In this document: piece after piece, positions 13,641 to 17,257 of the stretch
Numbering within the stretch: the stretch's first letter is position 1
Layout of the letters: each line of letters opens with the position of its first letter
Program-made: the position numbers and the translations under genes
Notes under the pieces: generated by a model
The model's input: only the letters and a program-made list of their open reading frames with translations
Databases searched by the model: none
What the model was told of the DNA's origin: nothing
Assembly (NCBI GenBank): GCA_018650165.1
Contig: JABIGM010000019.1
Coordinates: 1-36,108 of the forward strand
DNA length: 36,108 nt
Source of the DNA: Methanobacteriota archaeon
GTDB lineage: Archaea; Thermoplasmatota; Poseidoniia; Poseidoniales; Poseidoniaceae
Reading direction: 5' to 3'

Positions 13641-13907
13641 ATGTCAGATGACAAGAACCAGACACGCTCCTTCGAGGACAAAGTCCAGGACAAGCAAGAT
13701 GCTATTGAAGCACAATTCCGCAAGATATCTCGCGGAAGCTGGGCTCGTATCATTCGTATGGCTCGAAAGCCTACGCCTCAGGAATTCAAACAAACATCAA
13801 TTATTTGTGGGATTGGACTATTTATCCTAGGTTTTATTGGGTTTGTAATGCTCGTACTGATGGACAATTTCATACCATGGCTTATCCATGATGTATTTGG
13901 TATCTGA
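13641..13907 (+). CDS. secE: Preprotein translocase subunit SecE/Sec61-gamma
   Basis: Short protein with amphipathic RMARKPTPQEFKQTS and a single C-terminal TM; directly upstream of spt5, as is common in archaea. Confidence 0.88.
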   Translation: MSDDKNQTRSFEDKVQDKQDAIEAQFRKISRGSWARIIRMARKPTPQEFKQTSIICGIGLFILGFIGFVMLVLMDNFIPWLIHDVFGI

Positions 13908-13923
13908 TATTGGAGGGGAAATT

Positions 13924-14862
13924 ATGACTGACGCATTTATCGCATTTGTTCGCCACGAAGAGGAATTATTACTTCTTCATCGCTCTAAATCTGATTCAGA
14001 TTCACCAGGCCTTTGGGACGGTGTGTACGGAATTGGAGATACCGAAGAGGATGTACTTAACCGTGTAGCGGAATGTACCGGAATTCCTCTAGAGGATTTG
14101 GAATATGTTCGTGCAGGACCTGCACTTGGAATTGATATCGGAGGCCGTCTACAAGATATTGCTCCATGCCTAGTAGTATCTTCCAGTAAGGAAGTAACTC
14201 CAACAGGCCGTTACACTGAATCGATCTGGGTTGATCCGGGAAACATTGGTTGGGAAGACCGTGAAAATAACAGAACGAGACACCATGTATTCACAGATCT
14301 AGATATGGAAGGTAGCGAGAAATTGTTGCTGGAGATGTATGGTTCAGTTGCTACTTACCTTTACATCGTAAAGACTGCAATTGGTTCAGAGAAGCGCGTC
14401 GCTGATGAAATGAAAGCTCGTTTGATGGGCTCAGGCTCACTTTCAGCACTTAGCGATGATATATTCGGCATTCTTCATCCAACAGGCATGCGTGGATATG
14501 TAATCGTTGAATCCAGCGCTTCACACCATGTTGAGAAGTTAATCGGGCGTTCTGGTGGTCGTGATCCAAAGGCCCGCCGTGGACTAAATCAAACACCTCT
14601 AAAGAACGCAAAGACTGTTCTTCCAGGAGAGGCAGCACTCAAGGATATCCTACCGTACTTAGAGCCAAAGGCAGTTACCAGCGGCATAGAAGTAGGATGT
14701 ATCGTAGAGATTGTAACAGGAGCATTCAAAGGCGAAAAGGCACGTGTTACTAGTGTCGCAGAAACCAAAGAAGAAGTTAGTATGGAGTTGTATGAACAAC
14801 CTATCCCTATGACCCTAAAGATGCGTGGAGATCATGTCCGCGTCGTCGAGAGAGTCGAATGA
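13924..14862 (+). CDS. spt5: Spt5/NusG (NGN + KOW) with an N-terminal degenerate Nudix-like domain
   Basis: C-terminal LYIVKTAIGSEKRVADEM...MRGYVIVESS...GCIVEIVTGAFKGEKARVTSV is NGN+KOW; N-terminal about 135 aa is Nudix-like (ELLLLHRS...PGLWDGVYGIGDTEEDVLNRVAECTGI). Start moved to ATG 13924, preceded by GGAGGGG. Confidence 0.85.
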   Translation: MTDAFIAFVRHEEELLLLHRSKSDSDSPGLWDGVYGIGDTEEDVLNRVAECTGIPLEDLEYVRAGPALGIDIGGRLQDIAPCLVVSSSKEVTPTGRYTESIWVDPGNIGWEDRENNRTRHHVFTDLDMEGSEKLLLEMYGSVATYLYIVKTAIGSEKRVADEMKARLMGSGSLSALSDDIFGILHPTGMRGYVIVESSASHHVEKLIGRSGGRDPKARRGLNQTPLKNAKTVLPGEAALKDILPYLEPKAVTSGIEVGCIVEIVTGAFKGEKARVTSVAETKEEVSMELYEQPIPMTLKMRGDHVRVVERVE

Positions 14863-14940
14863 TTGCGCGCGGCGCGATTAAATAGGGGAGGCAAGTCGGC
14901 AACCTGCTCACGTCCGTGTGAGTAACAGAGGTGTACAAAC

Positions 14941-15222
14941 ATGCCAAAGCCTTGGACCAGCCATCTTATCATAAAAGCGCTAGGTGTCAAGAAATGCAAT
15001 GGTAGTCTGGATGCCGCTACTGAGGACTTGAGCCTCGAAAAAGCGATGGACGTCGCTCGCCAAAAGCACAACGACGGCCACTTGACTGGAGCAGACCTGA
15101 AAGCGCAGACCCGTGAGGTCATCGGCACATGTGTGTCAATGCGTGTTAAGATCGATGGACTCTGGGCCAAGGACGCTCTGACCACAATTGAAAAAGGAGA
15201 ATGGGACGAACGATTTGCTTGA
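14941..15222 (+). CDS. rpl11: Ribosomal protein L11, C-terminal domain only
   Basis: 93 aa; TSHLIIKALGVKK...LKAQTREVIGTCVSMRVKIDG matches the archaeal L11 C-terminal domain; the N-terminal PPxGPALG domain is absent; in-frame TAA at 14923-14925 blocks upstream extension. Confidence 0.88.
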   Translation: MPKPWTSHLIIKALGVKKCNGSLDAATEDLSLEKAMDVARQKHNDGHLTGADLKAQTREVIGTCVSMRVKIDGLWAKDALTTIEKGEWDERFA

Positions 15223-15283: not shown

Positions 15284-15928
15284 ATGGAACAGAAAATACA
15301 AGAAGCAATCAAGAACGCTATCGAAGGCGCTCCAGAACGTAAATTTGTTGAATCGTTAGATATGGCATTCACAATCAAAGATGTTGATTTGAAAAACCCT
15401 AACAATCGTATTCAAGAAGAAATCCGCCTACCTGCTGGTCGTGGCAAGCAAATCAAAATTGCAATGTTTGCAGCATCAGATGCTGCAAAGAAAGCAAAAG
15501 ATGCCGGTATCCATGTTATCGATCCATCTGAGATTGAAGAACTTGGAAAGAACAAGGGTAAAGCTAAGAAAATAGCAAACTCGTTTGATTTCTTCCTTTC
15601 AGAAGTCCCTCATATGGGATTGATTGGTCGTTACCTCGGTGTAGTTCTAGGTCCTCGTGGCAAGATGCCCCGTCCAGTTCCACCAGTAGTTGACCCAGCA
15701 GCAATAGCAGCAGGTCTTCAATCCACTACTGTAGTCAAGTCTCGTGACAAGGTTACTTTCCAAACATCGTTTGGAACTCTTGCACAATCTGAAGATGAAT
15801 TATTGAAGAACGCTATGGAAGTTTACACCCGTGTAACATCTCGATTAGAGCGCGGAGTAGGAAACATTCGTTCACTTAACATCAAGACCACAATGGGTCC
15901 AGCAACTAGAGTCGAGGTGGTTAATTGA
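15284..15928 (+). CDS. rpl1: 50S ribosomal protein L1
   Basis: GRYLGVVLGPRGKMPRPVPP and other L1 motifs; located between L11 and L10. Confidence 0.95.
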   Translation: MEQKIQEAIKNAIEGAPERKFVESLDMAFTIKDVDLKNPNNRIQEEIRLPAGRGKQIKIAMFAASDAAKKAKDAGIHVIDPSEIEELGKNKGKAKKIANSFDFFLSEVPHMGLIGRYLGVVLGPRGKMPRPVPPVVDPAAIAAGLQSTTVVKSRDKVTFQTSFGTLAQSEDELLKNAMEVYTRVTSRLERGVGNIRSLNIKTTMGPATRVEVVN

Positions 15929-16938
15929 TTCCTAAGGTAGCATCCTGGAAGAAAAACACAGTCTCTGGGCTATCAGAAATGCTTGCTAAAGGTGGTACCT
16001 TTGCAGTAATCGATATTCATGGCGTGCCTGCCGATTCTATGATTGGCATGCGTGCAGGACTTCGTGACAAAGTAAACATTCAAGTTGCAAAAAAGCGTTT
16101 GATGAAGATTGCTTGGGAAGCTGCAGGAAATGATTTTGCAGACCTTGAGGAATTATACTCTTCAGCGGTTCAGCCAGCACTTGTTCAGACAGACATGAAT
16201 TCATTTGAAGTTTTCACAGAACTGAAAGCTACTGAAGCAGGCCGTGCAGCAAAGCCCGGCGACACAGCACCTTACGACATAATTGTTGACAAAATGGACA
16301 CTGGAATGCCACCAGGACCAATTGTTGGAGAATTAAACTCCGTTGGAATCCCTGCTAAAATTGTAAAGGGTAGTGTACAAATTCAAAAGAAGACAACAGT
16401 TCTAACAGAAGGTGAAGCATTCACTGGAGATCTTGGAATGATGCTCTCTAAGATTGGAATCAATCCAATCGTAACCGGTTTGCGACTTTGCGGTACTATC
16501 GAAGATGGTACTCGCTTTGAACCTGCAACTCTAGATATCGACTACGCTAAGTTTGAATCTGATCTAATCAGTTTCGGAGCAGGCGCATTCAATCTGGCTT
16601 GCAACATCCACTGGTTTACCAGTCAAACCGTACCAACACTCCTGTCCAAGGCGAGCGGCGAAGCTCTTGCACTGGCACTGGAGGCTGCAATTGTCACAAC
16701 AGACACTTTGCCGCATCTAATTGGACGTGCAAACCGTGGCGCAATGGGCGTTGCTGGTTCACTGTCTAGCGACGCACTCGATGAAGAGCTGAGCCAACTT
16801 CTTGGCGCAGCCGTTTCTGCTGCAGAATCTGCAGCAGCAGCACCGAGCTCCGATGAAGCCCCTGCCGAGGCTGAAGAGGAAGATGAAGAAGAAGAGGAAG
16901 AGGGCGGTTTCGACGGCCTTGGGTCCTTATTCGGCTGA
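15925..16938 (+). CDS. rpl10: Ribosomal stalk protein L10 (P0)
   Basis: Archaeal P0 architecture with acidic [17 protein letters not shown] tail; TTG start overlaps the L1 stop (TTGA). Confidence 0.95.
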   Translation: MIPKVASWKKNTVSGLSEMLAKGGTFAVIDIHGVPADSMIGMRAGLRDKVNIQVAKKRLMKIAWEAAGNDFADLEELYSSAVQPALVQTDMNSFEVFTELKATEAGRAAKPGDTAPYDIIVDKMDTGMPPGPIVGELNSVGIPAKIVKGSVQIQKKTTVLTEGEAFTGDLGMMLSKIGINPIVTGLRLCGTIEDGTRFEPATLDIDYAKFESDLISFGAGAFNLACNIHWFTSQTVPTLLSKASGEALALALEAAIVTTDTLPHLIGRANRGAMGVAGSLSSDALDEELSQLLGAAVSAAESAAAAPSSDEAPAEAEEEDEEEEEEGGFDGLGSLFG

Positions 16939-16957: not shown

Positions 16958-17257
16958 ATGGAGTACGTATACGCTGCAATGCTTCTGCATTCTGCTGAAA
17001 CTGAGATCGACGAAAAAGCTGTCACTGCTGTCCTAAAGGCTGCTGGTGTAAGTGCTGACTCTGCCCGTGTGAAGGCTCTTGTAGCCTCACTAAGCGGTGT
17101 TGACATAGCTGAAGCAATGGCTACTGCCGTTGCTGCCCCTGCTGCTGCCGCACCTGTTGCGGCTGCCGCTTCCGCTGACGCTGCACCTGCAGAAGAAGCA
17201 GAAGAGGAAGAAGAAGAAGAGGGCGGCTTCGAAGGCCTAGGTTCTCTATTCGGCTGA
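16958..17257 (+). CDS. rpl12: Ribosomal protein L12/P1
   Basis: [31 protein letters not shown] start, Ala-rich hinge, acidic tail ending EGLGSLFG. Confidence 0.95.

Follow-up and report, generated by a model that had tools for sequence, protein, structure and literature searches.

A half-length uL11 gene in the spt5-L11-L1-L10-L12 cluster

The window, which is the whole stretch of 36,108 nucleotides of contig JABIGM010000019.1 that was analyzed, harbors the archaeal cluster spt5-L11-L1-L10-L12, in which a short L11 gene lies among intact neighbours (Table 1). Its reading frame is translated into a product of 93 aa (MPKPWTSHLIIKALGVKKCNGSLDAATEDLSLEKAMDVARQKHNDGHLTGADLKAQTREVIGTCVSMRVKIDGLWAKDALTTIEKGEWDERFA*), which starts with MPKPWTSHLIIKALG at the linker of ordinary L11, while its far end is the normal L11 C terminus. 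The only Pfam match of this protein was the RNA-binding domain of ribosomal protein L11 (Ribosomal_L11, residues 3-70), and no match to the N-terminal domain with its proline-rich helix (L11_N) was obtained. The protein pairs with residues 71-158 of the archaeal L11 4v6u_BH, and in the solved archaeal L11 chains the alignment begins only at residue 68-71. An AlphaFold (AF2) model of the short uL11 (pLDDT 82.5) was compared with the C-terminal domain of M. jannaschii uL11 from a stalk-base crystal structure (5d8h_C) and matched it with a TM-score of 0.84 and an rmsd of 1.6 Å. This confirms that the product is the C-terminal, rRNA-binding domain (CTD) of uL11 alone, as the first-pass annotation of the sequence had claimed.

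The same annotation had argued against an error in the start call, and the in-frame stop codon, the AGGTG site in front of the ATG and the gap of 78 nt to the spt5 stop codon were all found as it described them. The position of the gene between spt5 and L1 was likewise correct, but the gene is not directly next to L10/L12, as L1 intervenes. The uL10 protein of the window could be aligned with 4v6u_Bk from end to end.

Table 1. Genes, signals and substituted residues at the uL11 locus.
Feature	Position	Strand	Evidence or remark
SecE gene	13641..13907	+	Pfam score weak, 22.0 bits vs cut-off 22.7
spt5 (NGN + KOW), upstream neighbour	13888..14862	+	N-terminal Nudix-like extension
Extra N-terminal domain of Spt5	13888..14352	+	~145 aa
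In-frame TAA stop, 5' of the start codon	14923..14925	+	sequence, translation
AGGTG, probable Shine-Dalgarno site	14929..14933	+	similar G-rich sites before most relatives' genes
rpl11 (uL11), CTD only, 93 aa	14941..15222	+	PF00298 E 4e-11, no PF03946; AF2 fold
KCNG, residues 18-21, in place of KGSG/KGSS of the RNA-binding loop	14992..15003	+	
Glu28 in place of a near-invariant Gly	15022..15024	+	
Arg68 in place of the SMG-motif Gly, which is near-universal	15142..15144	+	
uL1 gene, downstream neighbour	15284..15928	+	PF00687 E 3e-44
uL10 (P0), full length, archaeal insertion domain kept	15925..16938	+	PF00466 + PF17777
aL12 (P1) stalk protein, intact	16958..17257	+	PF00428 E 7e-15

The SecE gene is located just 5' of spt5. 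The extra domain at the N terminus of Spt5 is a feature of the Poseidoniaceae and resembles a degenerate Nudix domain, although its PF00293 score (15.2 bits, E 0.022) stays under the cut-off. It was also seen at eight further loci, at one of which (L233) a still further upstream extension carries a zinc finger-like C-x2-C...H-x4-H motif; three Spt5 sequences of the sister family are without the extra domain.

Search for the N-terminal domain in Poseidoniales

In the search for a full-length or split L11, PF03946 matched nothing at E ≤ 10 in the genome from which the window comes (1.75 Mb, 66 contigs, 80% complete), and at the same setting it was positive in 14 of 14 control genomes. Above the cut-off, it matched none of the 116 genomes of the window's family and a single one of 324 genomes of the order, which span 22 genera. 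This lone case, a 60%-complete MAG of the order's second family with a listed contamination of 1%, was rejected as non-native. The matching contig derives from the sister order; compared with one sister-family genome, its L11 shows 93.6% and its Spt5 92.5% identity. Because of this near-identity, and since the bin also contains a native short L11, the full-length L11 was ascribed to bin contamination.

Weak PF03946 matches in order genomes, the best of them at 18.4 bits, extended over 17-40 residues in unrelated frames and were dismissed as noise. A custom profile, built on 21 N-terminal domains (NTDs) from the phylum, was run on 89 order genomes, which apart from that of the window are at least 85% complete; its best match had an E of 0.096 and covered 29 residues. 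In other Thermoplasmatota nearly all PF03946 scores are 77-92 bits, while PF00298 still recognizes the CTD of the order with 23-49 bits, vs mostly 65-97 bits in others; therefore, an NTD as diverged as this CTD should have been detected. These scores bear on a split gene, i.e. a strongly diverged small NTD protein that is encoded elsewhere and meets the CTD again on the ribosome. Whole-genome sequence searches can miss very divergent domains and the CTD of the order is itself diverged, but divergence of that degree would leave an NTD at ~30-45 bits, which exceeds by a clear margin the strongest noise of either PF03946 or the custom profile (13.6 bits). Moreover, the weak matches lay in differing open frames of 30-2885 aa, among which no family-wide candidate recurred. 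We therefore regard a split gene as very unlikely.

Distribution and timing of the loss

According to NCBI, the order Poseidoniales consists of the two families Poseidoniaceae and Thalassarchaeaceae, which presumably are the two families compared here. The CTD was found in 98 of 116 genomes of the window's family, covering all 11 genera, and in 57 of 60 genomes of the other family. Every L11 gene of the order that was read encodes 91-94 aa from a homologous start codon, is preceded by a G-rich ribosome-binding site and lies mostly 58-137 nt from spt5. The best 80 matches in the named collection came solely from Candidatus Poseidoniales/Poseidoniaceae and equivalent Euryarchaeota MAGs. Four single-cell genomes (AG-461-G23, AG-333-I22, AH-287-P07, AH-273-O19) carry the short L11 too, as does the closed MG-II chromosome CM001443.1.

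The draft state of the window's genome could suggest that an assembly, binning or frameshift error deleted the N-terminal half of the gene. However, the same gene boundary recurs in many independent MAGs as well as in the single-cell genomes and the closed chromosome, and there is an in-frame stop upstream with an intact spt5 close by. Such an artefact, which the first-pass annotation had named as a threat to its claim, is thereby refuted, and we give it practically no weight.

Outside the order, the NTD was detected in 173 of 182 Thermoplasmatota genomes (a draw from the phylum, which we divided into order and non-order genomes ourselves). It was also detected in the sister family (20 of 23 genomes), which belongs to the same class but to another order and is probably Marine Group III, and the genes there are full length. 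Since this family and nearly all other Thermoplasmatota keep a full-length L11, a single ancient loss in the stem of Poseidoniales is the simplest history. The data thus support a domain loss that is order-wide and ancient instead of a peculiarity of one genome, which is broader than could be seen from the window alone. We hold it to be highly probable that the ancestor of Poseidoniales lost the NTD of uL11 (~70 aa) and that all of its descendants run on a CTD-only uL11.

Selection and fixed changes in the remaining domain

The short uL11 gene is under strong purifying selection, with dN/dS values of 0.055-0.105 against close relatives. Four positions of the CTD are changed and fixed across the order, three of which were formerly glycines. 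The KGSG loop reads KCNG in each of the 53 distinct sequences from the order, owing to C19 and N20, at which 46 of 48 other sequences have G and 34 of 48 have S, respectively. Similarly, Glu28 (53/53) stands where 41 of 48 others have G, and Arg68 (53/53) occupies the glycine position of the SMG motif, which is G in 44 of 48 others.

The replacement of near-invariant residues in all members of the order might be taken as a sign that the protein is a repurposed L11 fragment and no longer ribosomal. Yet the gene remains in the spt5-L11-L1-L10-L12 cluster, selection on it is strong, its RNA target and its fold are retained, and no other L11 occurs in the order genomes, which makes repurposing even less credible than a split gene.

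The rRNA target and EF2

For the GTPase-associated centre (GAC), the core of 23S rRNA was compared in 25 sequences; positions carry nominal E. coli numbers, which were assigned by aligning the sequences to a fragment of the E. coli molecule. Both tip adenines of helices 43 and 44 (H43/H44), A1067 and A1095, are retained in the order. At position 1083, where no outgroup sequence has G, every order sequence read has G instead of U. In both Poseidoniales families, and also in the single sister-family sequence read, U-A takes the place of G-C at the 1091-1100 pair; because the sister family has the same change, it predates the loss. This pair and the change of 1056 to A, which is common to the NTD-keeping sister family as well, were therefore rejected as being tied to the loss. 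In one genome the 23S gene occurs twice, on separate contigs, with small differences between the copies.

An EF2 gene is present, and its order-fixed replacements lean to domains III and V. Of the 54 eligible positions in domain III, 9 are order-fixed (P 0.02), as are 5 of 16 in a segment of domain V that was picked post hoc (P 0.006); domain V overall gives P 0.06. Co-evolution of EF2 with the loss of the NTD may be read from this pattern as a weak lead.

Both the EF2 replacements and the fixed G at 1083 would fit a loss of the NTD caused by a takeover of its job, either by an unrelated protein or by changes in EF2, the rRNA and the uL11 CTD, which is compatible with an ancestral loss. The EF2 enrichment is weak once several tests are allowed for, the NTD-keeping sister family has other changes in the rRNA core too, and no candidate for a substitute protein was found, although sequence searches may miss a very divergent or unrelated one. 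We judge such a takeover to be rather unlikely, although by far the least so of the alternatives considered. A slightly better chance, but still a tentative one, is given to the proposal that the order possesses a re-engineered, natively NTD-free GAC, in which the RNA-binding loop of uL11, position 1083 of the 23S rRNA and domains III and V of EF2 have co-adapted.

Proposed working of the NTD-free ribosome

In ordinary ribosomes the NTD of uL11 contacts the factors, its GPLG helix touching eEF2, and the CTD binds rRNA (PMC9122527). The H43/H44 tips stack straight onto domain V of eEF2, while P0 lies against the G domain (PMC4896748). Under an ancestral loss inherited by the whole order, the remaining CTD would probably still bind 23S rRNA helices 43/44 at the stalk base and maintain their fold, a placement suggested by homology. 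What would be missing is the lid, which normally swings over the H43/H44 RNA and makes contact with EF2/EF1A while packing against uL10. For the translation GTPases, the sole contacts left would presumably be those with the rRNA tips (A1067, A1095), with the sarcin-ricin loop and with the uL10/aL12 stalk, so that the RNA platform and the stalk were kept and the protein lid was dropped. As point mutations in the GPLG motif of the yeast NTD reduce poly-Phe synthesis to 9-32% (PMC9122527), loss of the NTD without compensation is expected to be costly.

The binding site of thiostrepton is a cleft that has the uL11 NTD on one side and A1067/A1095 of H43/H44 on the other (PMC5960728), and the ribosomes of Poseidoniales are predicted to be insensitive to antibiotics of this type (thiopeptides). 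If the re-engineered GAC is true, a group that ranks among the most abundant archaea of the ocean would be naturally resistant to them.

Poseidoniales (Marine Group II) are abundant ocean archaea, and uL11 is a normally universal protein of two domains. The order-wide natural loss shows that a free-living lineage can succeed without the NTD and offers a clean natural experiment on its role. The CTD-only uL11 is a synapomorphy for Poseidoniales, and it is also a warning, as automatic annotation and phylogenomic markers that rely on L11 meet a half-length protein in this order.

Comparison with known systems

No report on Poseidoniales together with L11 was found in the literature, which was covered through 5.4 million open-access papers with subscription journals largely outside, and PMC7203096, on multidomain ribosomal trees, contains nothing on an L11 loss in Poseidoniales. 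The protein is a known one in a variant form of unusual breadth and age. It shares with archaeal uL11/L11P (Methanocaldococcus jannaschii 5col/5d8h, Haloarcula 1s72) the CTD fold, PF00298, a sequence identity of 31-35%, and spt5 and L1-L10-L12 as gene neighbours. In contrast to the archaeal protein, it is without PF03946, the PP hinge and the proline helix (GPPLGPALGP), and the KGSG loop and the SMG motif are altered.

The AF2 fold of the short uL11 also matches structures of the CTD-fragment type. These engineered bacterial L11 CTD fragments (L11-C76 type; 1hc8, 1y39), which bind the 58-nt GAC RNA on their own, are laboratory products, whereas in Poseidoniales the CTD by itself is what the native gene encodes, throughout an order. 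Cells of E. coli mutants that lack L11 are able to live. Yeast without uL11 is viable as well and grows slowly (PMC9122527). Ribosomes without uL11 thus resemble those of Poseidoniales in that life is possible without the NTD; however, these mutants are slow-growing laboratory strains, while Poseidoniales have lost only part of the protein, in nature and long ago, and evidently thrive.
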